Shown: in pieces, positions 1,832 through 21,298 of the stretch
Layout of the letters: each line of letters opens with the position of its first letter
Position numbering within the stretch: the first letter of the stretch is position 1
NCBI GenBank assembly: GCA_001275005.1
Contig: JWZX01002702.1
Location: 1-21,298, forward strand
Length of the DNA stretch: 21,298 bases
DNA from: Chrysochromulina tobinii
Taxonomy: Eukaryota; Haptophyta; Prymnesiales; Chrysochromulinaceae
Direction: 5' to 3'
Position numbers and translations under genes: made by a program
Notes under the pieces: model-generated
What the model was told of the DNA's origin: nothing
What the model saw: only the letters and a program-made list of their open reading frames with translations
Databases searched by the model: none

Positions 1832-2180
1832 ATCACCACATACGTGTAGCGTCAGAGCAGGGACGCTGTGGCCTTAGTGCACCATACTATGCTGTCAGGT
1901 CCTCGGGCTTGGCGCGTTCGGTGAGGAGTATAGCTCATGATAAGTGAAGATCGGCGGAGGTTCCGCGTGCTTAGTGAACGGGACGAGCTGCAGCAAGCAC
2001 GACCCCACATCCAAGAGAGAGTGGAAGAAGAGACTGTATTCCCAGGATGCCGCACGCCGATCCCTGTCTGGGTGTTTCCGCTCGTCACGGCGCGATGTCA
2101 CAAAAACGGAAATCCAAGCGCCCGATTGGCCGCGTGGAGATCCTCGTTCTTTTTGCGCCCACTCACAAATTTTGCGTGAG
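1832..2180. other. intergenic region upstream of the HeH/MAN1-like gene
   Basis: About 350 bases. The downstream gene's frame is open through much of it but has no ATG before 2181, so part may be 5' UTR. I see no TATA box and no convincing extra gene. Confidence 0.4.
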
Positions 2181-4169
2181 ATGCAAGCGCAACCCAAGAC
2201 GATCGCGGACTACAAGAAGGCGCTAGCACGCCTCGGTGTTCCGCTTCCGGCCGGCACCACGAAAAAGGCCGACTACGAGGCGCTTTGGCTGTCAGCGGCG
2301 ACCAAGAAGGCTGCTTCGCCCCCTCTCAAGCCTCGCTTCGTCAATCCCAACGTGCCGCTCAGTATGCAAGAGGCCAATCTGAGAGCGACAACCTGCCCAA
2401 GCACATTCACGCAGCCTCCGTCAACACCAGCCACGCCAGCTTTCGAGCTGCCGGAGTACTCCTTTGCCAGTGCACCAGTGGAGGACGCGTCGCCGTCGCC
2501 TCCTCAGGTGATGGACAACCATTGGCTGCCCGCCGCGCCGTCGGCTGAGGTGCCCTGCGCCGATGAGGCTCGCACCCTCCAGAGAGAATCACCGAAGCAA
2601 CGCTCGCGCGTCCATTCCTCGAGCAAGGGAGCCACGGTGGCATCGTCACCTTGGCTGGTGCTGGTGGCTGCGATGCTAGTTGCTCTCGGTGGGGGAGGCT
2701 ACTGGATGTTGCCACAGTGCAACCTCGAGACTGGCGTAAGCGAGCCCGTGGGTATGGTCATGGCGCAGATCACTGAAGAAGCGGCAGATTTCATTGCGCC
2801 GGTGGCGGCCGTCGAGATTGAGAGCATCGCGGAGGCAGCACCCGCGGCTGCTGCGCAAGACAAGGCCGAAGAGGCGGCGGAAGACAAGGCCGCCGAAGAC
2901 AACGCTGAAGACAACGCCGAAGACAACGCCGAAGACAACGCTGAAGACAACGCTGAAGACAACGCCGAAGACACCGCCGAAGACAACGCCGAAGACAAGG
3001 CCGAAGACAGCGCCGAAGACAACGCCGAAGACAACGCCGAAAACAACGCCGAAGACAGCGCCGAAGACAACGCCGAAGACAACGCCGAAAACAACGCCGA
3101 AAACAACGCCGAAAAGGCGGCCAAGGAGGCCAAGGAGGTGTCTGCACTGGCGGTGACAGCGGTGGGACCGAGTGCTATCGATCATGCTGTGGACGAGGAG
3201 CCGGCGATCGCAACCGTCCCCGATGACGACCCTGAAGAGACACAGACGACGACGAGCGACGAGGCCATCGAGCTGCGCAGTCCCGAGGGCCGCGATGACG
3301 CCTTTTCGGCTGGTAAGTCCGCGTCCATCGCAATGGCAGTGGCCATTGTGCGTGCCGTGTCTGCTGCGGCGCATGCGGGTTTCGTCATGTGCTCCGAAGC
3401 AGCAGGCTGGGCGCTTCAGGCGGTAGCTCGCTCAGAGGGCGTGCAATGGCTGGCGGCTGCAGCGACCGAGTGCGCGTGGGCCCTTCTTCGCGCCTTCGTG
3501 AGCGCTGGCCTCGTCTTCGGAGCTTACGTGCTGCGCTGGGTCGCCCAGCTGCTCCAGCACGGACTACCGTGGATCGCACAGACCGCGCCCGTCGCGGCGC
3601 GCGGGCTGATTAGCATCGTCATCTTGCGGCCCGAGCTGCTCGGCGCGGCGATTGCGATGCTCGGCTCTCTTAGCTGCTTCCATCGCGCGTACCTATGGCA
3701 CAGGCGCTGGCGCGAGGCGCGCCGAGCTCAGCGCGCGGCGCAGGTCGATGCCGCGGCGCGCTGGGTGATAGGCGAGCTCAAGGCGCACTCGGAGCGTTGG
3801 ACGCCGATTTCGGGTGGCTGCACGCCGATCGCGCCCTCGGACCTGCGTGCACGCGTGCCGCACGCTGTGCTCGCGGACGGCTCGCTCTGGGGGCGCGTGA
3901 CCGCACGCGTGCGCTCGGACATGAGTGTGCGCGTCGTCCCGGGCGGCCACGACGGCATCTCGGCTGAGGAGGGATGGCTGTACGTCATGGGGGCGGCGGC
4001 GGTACAGGCACTCATCTCGCCCAGCGCGGGGCTGCGCTCGCCAACGTATGCCTTTTCGCCTCTGTTGGGGGGTACGCCGAAGACATCCGCATTTGCTGCC
4101 ACCTCGGCCTTCTCGCCGATGCTCCCCTCGCGCGTGGCAACGCCCCGCCCCATCGCCCCGGCCGCCTGA
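2181..4169 (+). CDS. HeH/LEM-like, MAN1/Src1-type inner nuclear membrane protein, 662 aa
   Basis: It starts at the first ATG of the frame, 2181. Residues 5-42 (TIADYKKALARLGV and following) resemble the SAP-like HeH fold of fungal Heh1/Heh2 (Src1), a relative of the LEM domain that faces chromatin. A Pro/Ser-rich linker follows, then a transmembrane segment at about 157-177. An acidic region contains 18 AEDN-type tetrapeptides (238-309). Several amphipathic or hydrophobic stretches (380-465) precede a second membrane segment at about 476-500. After a basic stretch (HRRWREARRAQR), residues 524-605 resemble the MAN1-Src1p C-terminal winged helix, including LWGRVTARVRSD and a trailing GWLYVM. 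The order HeH, TM, luminal region, TM, MSC is diagnostic of this family, which tethers chromatin at the nuclear envelope and, in yeast, takes part in pore-complex quality control. By family topology the repeat would face the perinuclear space. The C-terminus has paired AFSPLL/AFSPML motifs of unknown meaning. Confidence 0.72.
   Translation: MQAQPKTIADYKKALARLGVPLPAGTTKKADYEALWLSAATKKAASPPLKPRFVNPNVPLSMQEANLRATTCPSTFTQPPSTPATPAFELPEYSFASAPVEDASPSPPQVMDNHWLPAAPSAEVPCADEARTLQRESPKQRSRVHSSSKGATVASSPWLVLVAAMLVALGGGGYWMLPQCNLETGVSEPVGMVMAQITEEAADFIAPVAAVEIESIAEAAPAAAAQDKAEEAAEDKAAEDNAEDNAEDNAEDNAEDNAEDNAEDTAEDNAEDKAEDSAEDNAEDNAENNAEDSAEDNAEDNAENNAENNAEKAAKEAKEVSALAVTAVGPSAIDHAVDEEPAIATVPDDDPEETQTTTSDEAIELRSPEGRDDAFSAGKSASIAMAVAIVRAVSAAAHAGFVMCSEAAGWALQAVARSEGVQWLAAAATECAWALLRAFVSAGLVFGAYVLRWVAQLLQHGLPWIAQTAPVAARGLISIVILRPELLGAAIAMLGSLSCFHRAYLWHRRWREARRAQRAAQVDAAARWVIGELKAHSERWTPISGGCTPIAPSDLRARVPHAVLADGSLWGRVTARVRSDMSVRVVPGGHDGISAEEGWLYVMGAAAVQALISPSAGLRSPTYAFSPLLGGTPKTSAFAATSAFSPMLPSRVATPRPIAPAA
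2892..3107 (+). repeat. 12-bp minisatellite, 18 in-frame copies encoding AEDN-type units
   Basis: Eighteen head-to-tail copies of a 12-base unit, consensus GCCGAAGACAAC, encode Ala-Glu-Asp-Asn with variants AEDK, AEDT, AEDS and AENN. It is wholly in frame within the HeH/MAN1-like gene. Substitutions between copies show it is not brand new, and copy number may vary between strains. The repeat keeps several other frames open and so creates long spurious ORFs. Confidence 0.97.
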
Positions 4170-14127: not shown

Positions 14128-14802
14128 CTACCGCGATCGCATGTGACTACTACTCCAGTCGCCGTCGTTCGGGTTGCCTGAATAACCGAGGAACTTTTTC
14201 ATGCTCGTGCAGCGCATGCGCGTCGCCGCGAATTCCTCCCTCGTCAGGCCGCCGCGCGCGTCGATCTCCCTTTGGAAGGGCGCAGGTACTGGCAGCTCGA
14301 GCGGCCTGGCGGGCTCCCATGGAGCTGTGCTCATCCACGGCAGTCGCTCGGTGGGAATCCATGCATGCCGTTTGTAGAAATTGATCGCGCGCTGGTTTCG
14401 AAAGGCGACGACGAGGTGCGCGTGCGTGCAGTGCCGCTCCTCGATCATGATTTTCTCAGCCGCGGCCAACAGCGTGGACCCAATACCATGTCCTTGAGCG
14501 TCGGGCTGCACATAGAGGTGCTCAACCTCTGCGCCCCCGCGGATGACCGCGAAGCCCCTGACGCTCGTACCGTCGACAGCCGCTGTGGAGCCGTCTTCGG
14601 CAATCAGCGCCGTTGGTCTTCGTTGATGCAGCGCCGGGTCGTGCTCAAGCAAGGAGACACCCACGCGCCTCTCGAAACTTTGTAGCGTGCAGAGCGAGAG
14701 CGTTTGCCGTGGCACCAGGTGGCCGTGAGCGGCATGCCATGCACTGTGCCAAATACTCGCAATCTGCCGCGCATCTGCAGTCGTTGCCCAGCGTACGCGC
14801 AT
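14128..14802 (-). CDS. GNAT-family N-acetyltransferase, 224 aa
   Basis: It starts at ATG 14802 (MRVRWATTADARQIASIW), the first ATG; the opening is the typical first strand and helix of GNAT enzymes. The acetyl-CoA-binding motif A is VEHLYVQPDAQGHGIGSTLL (93-112) with the Q-x-x-G-x-G pyrophosphate loop at 103-108. Motif B, RNQRAINFYKRHAW (135-148), has the usual Asn and Tyr. GNATs transfer acetyl from acetyl-CoA to an amine; the acceptor (small molecule, antibiotic-like amine or protein) cannot be told. The C-terminal 70 residues, with EIDARGGLTREEFAATRMRC, extend beyond the minimal fold of about 150 residues and are not familiar to me. The fold resembles bacterial RimI-like single-domain acetyltransferases, but codon use and base content match its neighbours, so recent transfer is not indicated. 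Confidence 0.9.
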   Translation of the reverse strand: MRVRWATTADARQIASIWHSAWHAAHGHLVPRQTLSLCTLQSFERRVGVSLLEHDPALHQRRPTALIAEDGSTAAVDGTSVRGFAVIRGGAEVEHLYVQPDAQGHGIGSTLLAAAEKIMIEERHCTHAHLVVAFRNQRAINFYKRHAWIPTERLPWMSTAPWEPARPLELPVPAPFQREIDARGGLTREEFAATRMRCTSMKKFLGYSGNPNDGDWSSSHMRSR

Positions 14803-15214
14803 CGCCGAATCCCTTGGCGCGGAACCACAGTCGACGAACACTCGAAAGACTCTGAAGCTGAGGCAGGCGCGAAGACACAGAAAGGGACTGGGTGTGCGAT
14901 GAAGTGTGAATCAGAGTGTGAAGAGTCCGTACGAACCACCGTGAGCACGAACCACACGGTGTTTATTTTATGAGCTCATATTCGTGCACATATGCATTCC
15001 GCTCTCCCGCGCGGACGTACGGGGATGAGGTGCGCGGCACTACCGACTTCGCAACTACGGTAGTGTGTGACTTGAGGAGTCCATGTTGCATGCCGTCCGC
15101 CCAATACATGTACGTGCCTGCCCCTCCCTCGCTGACAGTTCACGCGCACGGCACTCACGCCAATGCGCCGCCCCCTTTCCTCCGATCCGAGCCCCTATGG
15201 CATTCTCCCCCCGC
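14803..15214. other. 412-bp intergenic region between the multi-pass membrane and GNAT genes
   Basis: It is 5' of the GNAT gene and 3' of the membrane-protein gene. It holds an AT-rich patch near 14960-14975 and a perfect 8-bp-arm hairpin at 15038-15065. No gene is visible. Confidence 0.5.
15038..15065. repeat. 8-bp-arm hairpin downstream of the membrane-protein gene
   Basis: CACTACCG (15038-15045) and CGGTAGTG (15058-15065) are perfect inverted copies around a 12-nt loop. On the minus strand this is about 150-177 nt after the stop of the membrane-protein gene. Confidence 0.5.
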
Positions 15215-17971: not shown

Positions 17972-19268
17972 TCACTGCGCCTTCTTACTCGCCTTCTTGC
18001 GACGTCCGGATGCGCCCGTGACGGCGCCCGCCGCGTCCTCCTCCGCCCGCACGTCGACCGCCCTCGACTTCCTCTTGCTGCTGCTGCCGCCGCCGCCGCC
18101 GGGACCCTGCCAGTGAGCGACGAGCTCATCCTCAAGGGCACGCGCGGCCCCCGACCCTTCTCCTGTCGCCGGCTCCTCCACCGCTGGCGCCGCCTCTTTC
18201 TTCGCGCCCCTTTGCTTCTTTGGCTTCACTGCGGCATACTCACCAGCCTCCGCTGCGTCTGCCTTCAACGGCGCGTCGCCCTTGCGCTGACGGCTCAGAA
18301 CCACCGCGGAAGTACGCCCTCCCACTGTGAGGAAGGTGATGGCGCCGCCGCGCTCGCCGGGCACCGTCCCAGGCACCTTGCCCCAGCGGTAATGAAAGAG
18401 CCAATCGCGTGGGAACTCTTCATCCTTGGCTCCACAGCTCACTGCGACGTTGAGGACGTGGGTGAGCGCCGCGCGGAGTCGGTCGACTTGGGCGTCGGAG
18501 AGGGAGCGGCAGATCGCTTCCGGGTGGACACCGGCATGAAAGAGGACTTCGTCCGCCACCCAGTTCCCCACGCCCGAGACGAGAGCGGCCTGGTCGAGAA
18601 GGAGCGCCTTGATGTTGCACCCTTTGGCCGCGAGCACCTCGAGCCAGCGGCCCTTCTCAATGGGGTCGATGAGAGGGTCGGGCGCCAGCGAGCGCCACGG
18701 CTCCTCGTTCTGCGGGTCGGCGCGCAGGCGCAGCCGGCCGAGGCGCCGCGGGTCGCAAAAGGCCAGCGCGTTGCCCGCCTCGAACTGAAGCTCGAGCTTG
18801 GTGAAGCGCGGCGGCCATGCCTCGTCGTGCACCCGAAACTCCTTGTACGACTGCGCCGCTACCTGGCAAGGCGGGAATCGAGCTCGACACTCTTGAACGC
18901 AGACAGAAGAGGTCTGCGCGGAGAAGGGGCAGCAGATTGGGTTGGGATGGAGGGCTCGTTCGCCGGCAACGTACGCCGCGAACTACAAAGGCCCCTGTCA
19001 TACCAAAGTGCGCGAGCAAGTGAGGTGGCGACGAGAGAACGAGCCACAGCTGCTTTCCGCGCCGCCGCACCTCCACGAGCTGCTTGCCTTCGAGCAGCGA
19101 GCTCACGATTGCCGCGTCTGCCTCCTTGTCATCGAAGACGATCTCGTCGAAGAGGCCGTCACGAGGCCCGCCGCCGCCCTCGACTGTGACGGCCATCGTG
19201 ATGCGCTGCGAAACGCAGTGGGTTGCGAGCAAGTTGCGTGCAGTCTCGACCTCGGGAAGCTCGGGCAT
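17972..19268 (-). CDS. FPG: formamidopyrimidine-DNA glycosylase, plant/fungal zincless type, 394 aa, two exons
   Basis: Base-excision repair enzyme that removes oxidised purines and cuts the abasic site. Exon 1 is 19268-18975 and exon 2 is 18862-17972; removing the 112-base GT-AG intron (phase 0) gives 394 residues. The start MPELPEVETARNLL supplies catalytic Pro2 and Glu3 after Met removal. Lys72 (RRRGKQLWLVL) is the conserved hairpin lysine, and HFGMTGAF (87-94) precedes the splice. In exon 2, FCDPRRLGRL is the strand-loop region and GVGNWVADEVLFHAGVHPE (from 195) the helix-two-turn-helix with invariant Asn198. There is no Cys4 zinc finger. Instead FPRDWLFHYRWGK and ITFLTVGGRTSAV form the zincless finger of plant and fungal FPGs, with the key Arg in GGRTS. 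The last ~100 residues are Lys-rich (PKKQRGAKK, SSSKRKSR, GRRKKASKK), likely nuclear targeting and DNA binding. Confidence 0.94.
18863..18974 (-). other. spliceosomal intron of the FPG gene, 112 bp
   Basis: Donor CGCGGC|GTACGT and acceptor CCTTGCCAG|GTAGCG with a pyrimidine-rich lead-in on the minus strand. Phase 0 on both sides, joining FVVRG to VAAQSYKEFRV, as expected for FPG. Confidence 0.82.
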
Positions 19269-19432
19269 GTCGACTGCGGCCCCCTTGCGCTTCAAGCTGC
19301 TCGCCGACGCTCCTTGGGAGAGGGAAAGAAGCGGTGGTGTGAACGTTAACACGACACACGTTTGGTGCTACGGCATCGTGGGTGGAGCAGAAAGTTTTCG
19401 CGTGCACCACGGCGTCGTCTTACTGAAAAGAG
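19269..19432. promoter_or_regulatory. 164-bp divergent promoter region between FPG and NAA80-ACTMAP
   Basis: The two start codons face away from each other with only 164 bases between. Near the centre, 19337-19352 is a near-perfect 16-bp palindrome, GTGTGAACGTTAACAC (14 of 16 positions symmetric), a candidate element serving both genes. No TATA box is seen. Confidence 0.45.
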
Positions 19433-21298
19433 ATGAAAATGCCGCCGTCCCCACCGCCCAAGCCATTGTCAGAGCCCGCCCTCGACACCACCACTGCCAC
19501 CGCCACCCTCGCCGCACGCCGACGGCGCGCAGCGGCCACACCACCTGTGACCGAACCGCCGCCACCGGTACAGGCGGCTGGCTCGGTCTTACGCGTGCAT
19601 CTCAAAGACGCTGACGACACCCTTATCGGCCAGCTCGCGCGGCTGATCGCGCAGCAGTGGCCCTCGACCTCAGCGCCGCGGCGGCGCACGGCCATGTGCA
19701 TGGCGAGCTTACTCAATCGCACCAACAACCGCAAGCTGCCTTGTCATCTGGCGCTCACGGATGCGCAGGGTACCGCGCTATGCCATGCCAAGCTCAGCCC
19801 CACACGCGATGACGAGGATGGATTTGGCGTGCTGCTCACCTCACTCGTCGTGGCGCCGAGCCACCGCCGGCGTGGCCTCGGCCGCCAGATGCTGGAGTTC
19901 GCTGAGGAGGTTGCCGTTGGCCTCGGAAGCAGCTACATGGCACTCTCGACGCCGGACATGCAAGCCTTCTATCTCGCGTGCGGCTATCATGTGCGCGACC
20001 ATCCGACGCTCAAGCCCGTTCCACACGTCAGTCGGAGCGACGCGGCGGCCGTTCGTGCGGTCATGGGAGGCGCGTCGGAGGTCTCGGAGATCGCAACCTC
20101 GCAAGCCGGCGCATCTGGCGCCGACCTCGTGCCGAGTGACGATCCCGCTGCGCCCTCGGTACTCCATAAGCGTCGCAACTGGGCCAAGGGTGAGATGGCT
20201 GAGCATGTGCTCAGTTGCTTCCATATTAGGCTACGCCCCACTGGCGATGCCGAGGACGGCGATGACGTGGCAGTCGAGGCCCATACGTGGCTTCGCAAGG
20301 CGCTGGTTGCCGGGGACGGTACGGATGCGCTCGCACAGCGTCGGCACTTGTGGACGCGCGCGGCTCTCGTCGCCTACGTGCGCCAGGCGCTCCTCGTGGA
20401 CCTGCGCGACGGTGGTGCGGCGGCGGTGCACGTGACACCGTCGGCACTACACTGGGAGCATCAAGTCGGCGACACATGCGGCCTGCAGGCATTGCGCGCT
20501 GCACGCTCGTGGTTCCATGGGTGGGGCATCGGCGGGCGCGGGGCGGCGCCGGAGGGTCCAGGGACCGAGCAGGCGGGCGAGCAGGTGGGCGAGCAAGTGG
20601 GCGGTCCGAAGCTCTCTCAACTCGTCGAGTCTATCGGCGTGTCCACACTCACGCCGACGGGCCAGGCTATGCCAGCTGTGGAAGGCGCTGATGATGAGAC
20701 CTGCCCACGTGGCCACGTCACCTCTCCACGTGGCCACGTCACCTCTGTGGAAGGCGCTGATGATGAGACCTGCCCACGTGGCCACGTCACCTCTCGCCAC
20801 GTCACCTCGTCTCTCGCCATCGAACCTCACTGGGGTATGCCCTTGAGCGCCGAGTTGAGCGCCATCACGGCCGCGAGTGTGCTGCAAACGGCTCTCACGG
20901 CCGGCTACACCAATTACGGTGAGCTCTTTGACGCGTCCGATCTGGCGGAGCTGGCCGCCACGTGCTGCGGTTTGGATGCGGCCGTGCTCTCATACGCCGA
21001 AGACGATCTCGCTGCTGCCGGCGAGGTCTGGGATAGGCTACTGCCCTCTTGGCTCGAGAGCGACGGGCTGGCGATCGTTGCGTATGCCAAGGCGGCGCTC
21101 CCCACGGCGAACGTGCTCTCAGCGGGTGGACCGCCCGAGACGGCCCACTATATGCTGCTCATCGGCACCGCCCGGAATGCGACGAAGACGGTACCGGTAG
21201 CTTTGCCGGCGGCGGCAGCGGCGGCGGAAGCGGCGGCGGCAGCGGCGGCGGCAGCGGCGGCGGCAGCGGCGGCGGCAGCGGCGGCGGCAGCGGCGGCG
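19433..21298 (+). CDS. fusion of NAA80-like actin N-acetyltransferase and ACTMAP-like actin maturation protease (3' end outside window)
   Basis: An unbroken 622-codon frame runs to the window end. The start (19433, or 19439 two codons on) is fixed by an in-frame TGA at 19424-19426. After a Pro/Thr leader, residues about 52-195 match NAA80: QQWPSTSAPRRRTAMCMASL, then ALCHAKLSP, then LLTSLVVAPSHRRRGLGRQM with the acetyl-CoA loop R-R-R-G-L-G (145-150), and LSTPDMQAFYLACGYHV (171-187). Residues about 338-580 match ACTMAP (C19orf54), a C39-like cysteine protease: HQVGDTCGLQALRAA with nucleophile Cys349, GYTNYGELFDASDLAELA (491-508) like the human GYTAQGEMF region, and TAHYMLLIG with candidate catalytic His572. 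In animals ACTMAP removes the acetylated first residue(s) of actin and NAA80 then acetylates the exposed acidic N-terminus, both in the cytosol. Between Cys349 and 491 lies a species-specific repeat insertion. The C-terminal part of the protease is cut off inside a poly-Ala/Gly-Ser-like simple repeat. Confidence 0.8.
   Translation, partial: MKMPPSPPPKPLSEPALDTTTATATLAARRRRAAATPPVTEPPPPVQAAGSVLRVHLKDADDTLIGQLARLIAQQWPSTSAPRRRTAMCMASLLNRTNNRKLPCHLALTDAQGTALCHAKLSPTRDDEDGFGVLLTSLVVAPSHRRRGLGRQMLEFAEEVAVGLGSSYMALSTPDMQAFYLACGYHVRDHPTLKPVPHVSRSDAAAVRAVMGGASEVSEIATSQAGASGADLVPSDDPAAPSVLHKRRNWAKGEMAEHVLSCFHIRLRPTGDAEDGDDVAVEAHTWLRKALVAGDGTDALAQRRHLWTRAALVAYVRQALLVDLRDGGAAAVHVTPSALHWEHQVGDTCGLQALRAARSWFHGWGIGGRGAAPEGPGTEQAGEQVGEQVGGPKLSQLVESIGVSTLTPTGQAMPAVEGADDETCPRGHVTSPRGHVTSVEGADDETCPRGHVTSRHVTSSLAIEPHWGMPLSAELSAITAASVLQTALTAGYTNYGELFDASDLAELAATCCGLDAAVLSYAEDDLAAAGEVWDRLLPSWLESDGLAIVAYAKAALPTANVLSAGGPPETAHYMLLIGTARNATKTVPVALPAAAAAAEAAAAAAAAAAAAAAAAAAAAAAA
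20567..20602 (+). repeat. 12-bp repeat, three copies (EQxG)
   Basis: Three copies of GAGCAGGYGGGC-like units encode EQAG, EQVG, EQVG within the protease-domain insertion. Confidence 0.85.
20678..20794 (+). repeat. nested in-frame duplication inside the protease domain (48-bp unit, 21-bp sub-unit)
   Basis: Two identical 48-base copies (20678-20725 and 20747-20794) are separated by a 21-base segment (20726-20746) that repeats the last 21 bases of the unit. Each PRGHVTS sub-unit carries CCACGTGGCCACGT. The encoded unit is VEGADDETCPRGHVTS. All lengths are multiples of three, so the frame is kept. Confidence 0.97.
21206..21298 (+). repeat. GGC/AGC simple repeat at the window end
   Basis: A 12-base unit GGCGGCGGCAGC repeats to the last base, with one AGC variant as AAG. 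In the NAA80-ACTMAP frame it reads as poly-Ala; in another frame it would read GGGS. It may mark an assembly break. Confidence 0.95.

Follow-up and report, generated by a model that had tools for sequence, protein, structure and literature searches.

In animals, the N-terminus of actin is matured in two ordered steps: ACTMAP removes the acetylated first residue, and NAA80 then acetylates the acidic residue thus exposed, as described in three papers (PMC10318143, PMC13367750, PMC8358657). Human ACTMAP is described as a separate protein of ~45 kDa whose nucleophile is the cysteine C132 (PMC13367750), and fly NAA80 recognizes the actin peptide mainly through W36, R38 and R43 (PMC10318143). Both enzymes have been described as animal-specific, and a GNAT review states that NatH (NAA80) has been identified only in animals (PMC7790372). 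Fusions of a GNAT with a papain-like DUF3335 domain have also been reported (PMC10318531). Here, we analysed a 21,298-nucleotide stretch of DNA from Chrysochromulina tobinii (the window), at the end of which lies an open reading frame (ORF) whose product joins an NAA80-like acetyltransferase and an ACTMAP-like cysteine protease in a single polypeptide and is probably a bifunctional actin-maturation enzyme. What is known is the two enzymes and their order in animals; what differs here is that they form one chain, in likely haptophytes. No mention of NAA80-ACTMAP fusions was found in the available parts of the literature naming both enzymes, a scope that does not include the ACTMAP discovery paper (Haahr 2022), and an earlier description of the fusion may exist.

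The two halves of the fusion protein

The original prediction, made from the sequence of the window, was of one chain in which an NAA80-like GNAT precedes an ACTMAP-like cysteine protease, encoded by a stop-free frame with a close upstream stop. Indeed, the frame is open from 19433 to the end of the contig and is preceded by an in-frame TGA at 19424-19426, and the domain order is supported by Pfam, by searches of the PDB, by a fold search of the GNAT half and by relatives. Three protein searches yielded 25 distinct relatives, 20 of which were aligned. The main features, all on the + strand, are as follows.

19433..21298, +: fusion ORF, 622 codons, its 3' end removed by the end of the contig, to which the frame stays open
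19580..20305, +: NAA80-like GNAT domain, about residues 50-291 (Pfam, PDB sequence matches, fold search of the P0016 model)
19658..19684, +: α1-α2 substrate loop, with Trp76 and Arg83/Arg84 as the equivalents of fly W36 and R43, and Ser rather than Arg at W+2
19865..19882, +: RRRGLG acetyl-CoA loop, residues 145-150, read from the sequence
20003..20266, +: low-confidence loop between the final two GNAT strands in the predicted model, residues 191-278 (189-276 in P0001)
20435..21298, +: ACTMAP-like cysteine protease domain, from residue ~335 onward, its C-terminal end missing (Pfam PF21646)
20462..20464, +: Gln344, likely oxyanion-hole residue, conserved in 20/20 aligned relatives
20477..20479, +: Cys349, predicted nucleophile, conserved in 20/20 aligned relatives
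20903..20932, +: GYTNYGELFD, the best-conserved stretch of the protease profile match (Pfam match, alignment)
21146..21148, +: His572, predicted catalytic histidine, conserved in 19/20 aligned relatives, the exception being P0013

The GNAT half was identified by both sequence and fold. Acetyltransf_1 of Pfam matches the window protein at 9e-9 (36.1 bits against a cut-off of 20.7), and its best PDB sequence matches are fly NAA80 (4.8e-8) and human NAA80 (1.7e-4). NAA80 occupies ranks 1-2 in the PDB sequence search and ranks 1-5 by fold with two predicted models; in the model of P0016, compared by Foldseek and VIA, the domain covers residues 3-200, residue 200 corresponding to residue 291 of the window protein. 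The GNAT half is thus nearer to NAA80 than to the other solved structures compared. A scan against NCBIfam returned weak GNAT matches only, none of them close to its cut-off. The domain includes the low-confidence β6-β7 loop and a last strand (TWLRKAL). The segments named in the original prediction are all present: RRRGLG, which we take from general knowledge of GNAT enzymes to be the acetyl-CoA loop, and STPDMQAFYLACGY, which begins at residue 172, lie in this half, and QVGDTCGL (from residue 344), GYTNYGELF (from 491) and TAHYMLLIG (from 570) lie in the protease half. In the substrate loop, the Trp is kept in all 16 relatives counted (4 of the 20 aligned rows are without the region), as is an Arg at W+8, and an Arg at W+7 is found in 3/16.

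For the protease half, ACTMAP-like_C (PF21646) matches the window protein at 1.1e-7 (32.7 bits against a cut-off of 27) and was matched by all 10 of the protease halves scanned against Pfam. No other C39-type family in Pfam gave a better match to any of these 10; the weak matches, found in one half each, were BtrH_N (0.0063), TiaS_FLD (0.051) and HEPN_SAV_6107 (0.06). Gln344 presumably contributes to the oxyanion hole, a role transferred from general knowledge of papain-like enzymes, and Cys349 is probably the counterpart of C132 in human ACTMAP. The protease half was modelled with fair confidence.

Compared with NAA80/NatH of human and fly, the fusion proteins share the GNAT fold, with NAA80 ranking first both in sequence and in predicted-fold comparisons, and the conserved substrate-loop Trp with a nearby Arg. 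In contrast to NAA80, they carry a protease, lack the W+2 Arg and any run of at least four prolines in the β6-β7 loop, and occur outside animals. With human ACTMAP (C19orf54), they have in common an ACTMAP-like_C match above the cut-off and the conserved Cys and His, whereas the protease domain of the fusion lies C-terminal to a GNAT.

The window is the entire contig C1545 of its own assembly (53.15 Mb, 2253 contigs), so that the C-terminal end of the fusion protein is missing. A complete relative, P0001, is 98-99% identical to the fusion ORF of the window and continues 78 residues past its alanine tract. The fusion ORF has two candidate starts, ATG 19433 and ATG 19439, and P0001 begins at the second. 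The GC content of the window is 58-69%, at which a long open frame carries little weight by itself, and other open frames of 700-800 codons are also present; the case for a fusion gene therefore rests on homology.

Occurrence of the fusion in relatives and in the C. tobinii assembly

By precomputed Pfam annotation, 19 of the 25 relatives contain both domains; in the six that remain, the models are incomplete or divergent and show pieces of both. P0003 is truncated, with ACTMAP-like_C at 21.3 bits and thus under the cut-off, P0013 begins within the GNAT domain, and the gene models of P0020, P0023, P0024 and P0025 depart from homologous sequence past the region of the catalytic Cys. The alignment omits P0003, P0020, P0023, P0024 and P0025 on account of truncation or of a continuation into sequence without homology; on visual inspection, all five show a GNAT followed by a WE(R/H)Q...C segment. 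Among the 20 aligned relatives, ACTMAP-like_C was found in 20/20 (E <= 0.01) and a GNAT family in 19/20; P0018 is without the FYxxCGY segment. Two relatives are labelled Chrysotila carterae (P0010) and Prymnesium parvum (P0016), which are Prymnesiophyceae of different orders, and one fusion relative is located on a 3.77 Mb contig. P0014 and P0018 are EukProt entries with names in transcript-assembly style, which suggests that their species make one transcript spanning both domains; among the relatives, no transcript was seen to stop between the two. The searches used fused queries and scored the ~8,000 candidates that shared the most words with the query, and may therefore miss fused forms in other lineages as well as haptophyte copies that are unfused and lie outside the length limits.

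Two relatives, P0007 and P0012, have a common C-terminal extension of ~250 residues after the protease domain, possibly a third module. In P0011, the N-terminal ~250 residues form an endonuclease/exonuclease/phosphatase domain ahead of the fusion, which may be a gene-model join.

A giant-virus or bacterial origin of the fusion was also considered and rejected: peptide-pattern scans, with a reach limited to the patterns, gave 22 pattern matches in viral contigs and 148 in prokaryote genomes, among which no relative was confirmed (0 and 0).

In the C. tobinii assembly, a profile search with ACTMAP-like_C matched only the fusion gene. When the full-length relative P0005 was used as the query, three matches fell in the fusion gene, and two weak ones to the GNAT part lay on C1766 (E 0.02) and C1726 (E 0.56). 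As the search was exon-wise and the assembly is incomplete, these results do not prove the absence of separate copies.

Variable regions and neighbouring genes

The fusion ORF also contains the following tracts of low complexity or low model confidence.

19439..19577, +: N-terminal tail of low confidence, rich in proline (residues 3-48), containing PPP (residue 7) and PPPP (residue 42)
20678..20818, +: in-frame, lineage-specific repeat insertion of VEGADDETCPRGHVTS units (comparison with relatives, predicted model)
21207..21298, +: (CGGCGGCGGCAG)n alanine-coding repeat, within which the contig terminates (sequence)

The N-terminal tail is proline-rich in P0001 and P0002 too. The sequence between the GNAT and the protease is of low confidence in the models, and its length differs between relatives. 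The original prediction had regarded the repeats as the mark of a possibly new version of the enzyme. The number of units varies: P0001 has two, P0002 and P0003 have one each, and P0004, P0005 and P0016 have none; the insertion is also of low confidence in the predicted P0001 model (residues 402-455). The VEGADDETCPRGHVTS repeats thus resemble an inserted, disordered segment confined to one lineage. The GGC-rich repeat that ends the contig matches at least 53 other places in the C. tobinii assembly, several of them at contig ends; its occurrence dozens of times in the genome probably explains the contig break.

Upstream of the fusion ORF, a formamidopyrimidine-DNA glycosylase-like gene lies at 17972-19352 (-), with an H2TH domain at 1.3e-20 in the scanned part and an N-terminal part in a different frame that was identified by eye. 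It is divergent from the fusion ORF, with a gap of about 80-165 bases, and given this layout and the short gap the two may have a common promoter region. The contig also contains a second GNAT gene at 14128-14841 (-) (Acetyltransf_1, 2.1e-13) and an ORF at 1944-4169 (+) with a long acidic AEDNAEDN-type repeat at 2800-3160 and no Pfam match.

Alternative explanations and the proposed pathway

Since each domain keeps its catalytic elements in one chain, the simplest explanation is that both maturation steps are carried out by one protein. That actin is the substrate, that both sites are active and that cutting precedes capping, as it does in animals, is inferred. In the proposed mechanism, the protease is predicted to remove the acetylated first residue from folded actin and the acetyltransferase to re-acetylate the newly exposed acidic residue. 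One enzyme molecule may hold the actin monomer through both steps, in which case the bare acidic end would be little exposed. The long low-confidence GNAT loop and the short stretch ahead of the protease are predicted to let both sites reach one actin N-terminus.

Several observations weigh against a bifunctional actin-maturation enzyme. In the substrate loop, the Arg at W+2 (fly R38, human R107) is absent in 16/16 relatives, and the second Arg stands at W+8 instead of W+7 in 13/16; with the Trp and the W+8 Arg kept but the W+2 Arg gone, recognition of an acidic end is plausible but altered. The residue after the catalytic His is Gln in P0001, P0002 and P0004, the clade of the window, and His in 15/20 rows. 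No solved relative of the protease half came out of a PDB sequence search, in which the best match (E 0.085) was unrelated, and the fold-search lists were filled by the GNAT half, so that they give no independent fold support for the protease half. Trees of the two halves, which take in 15 of the 20 aligned rows, have only 3/12 splits in common (against a mean of 0.21 and a maximum of 3 when labels were shuffled 1,000 times) and disagree on P0005, which groups with P0010 (0.919) in one and with P0015 (0.931) in the other. The distance correlation between the halves is 0.84, partly due to one long branch. The half trees are poorly resolved, and joint inheritance of the two domains is thus not shown. 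Runs of at least four prolines occur in only 4/25 proteins and never in the β6-β7 loop (P0011 has one ahead of its GNAT), so that docking of profilin on such a loop does not hold for these proteins in general; profilin genes are present in the C. tobinii assembly. Finally, the conventional actin gene in this assembly is broken at a contig edge. Its last 28 residues are encoded at C737 24625-24708 (-), and the rest, including the N-terminus, was not found in the assembly, in which the N-terminal pattern gave 0 matches.

Other explanations were also considered. It is a real possibility, at somewhat less than even chances, that both domains act on actin independently and that the fusion does no more than keep the two enzymes in equal supply, without any hand-over. 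The low-confidence sequence of variable length that separates the domains suits such simple tethering, and no result counts against it, as conservation of the fusion fits tethering and hand-over alike. A substrate other than actin, either another N-terminus that is trimmed and re-acetylated or a new substrate in the fast-evolving clade of the window, is unlikely. It would accord with the loss of the W+2 Arg, with the unrecovered actin N-terminus and with the long branch (1.28 and 0.90) on which P0001, P0002 and P0004 stand in the trees of the two halves, but each half independently points to an actin-specific family, and no further actin-maturation candidate turned up in the C. tobinii assembly.

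The DUF3335-GNAT fusions mentioned above resemble the fusion protein in being single chains with a papain-like domain and a GNAT (PMC10318531), and a GNAT joined to a bacterial-kind domain of this type would have no role on actin. This explanation is very improbable: the protease domain falls into a different Pfam family, with ACTMAP-like_C matched by 10/10 protease halves and DUF3335 (PF11814) by 0/10 at E up to 10, a negative limited by the HMMER filters, which drop most matches above about 0.1, and no relative was confirmed among the 148 prokaryote pattern matches. Least credible is an artefact of assembly or gene modelling, whether two joined genes or a chance frame. The contig does terminate inside the ORF, and the ORF contains repeats; however, the same fusion recurs in diverged proteins of several sources, including the 3.77 Mb contig and the two transcript-assembly names, which rules out an assembly join or a chance frame.

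Beyond a bifunctional actin-maturation enzyme in this species, a bolder proposal is a haptophyte-wide single-chain maturase that replaces the two animal enzymes. Such an enzyme would grip one actin monomer, remove the acetylated first residue at its cysteine site and deliver the bare acidic end directly to the acetyl-CoA site of the same chain; the unprotected intermediate would never be released, and no poly-proline profilin loop would be needed. We regard this proposal as rather doubtful. A conserved fusion in likely haptophytes would make the pathway older or more widespread than animals, and it would be natural evidence that the cutting and capping steps belong together. Moreover, the fusion would offer a one-protein system for asking about the hand-over of the actin end, which is hard to test with the separate animal enzymes.
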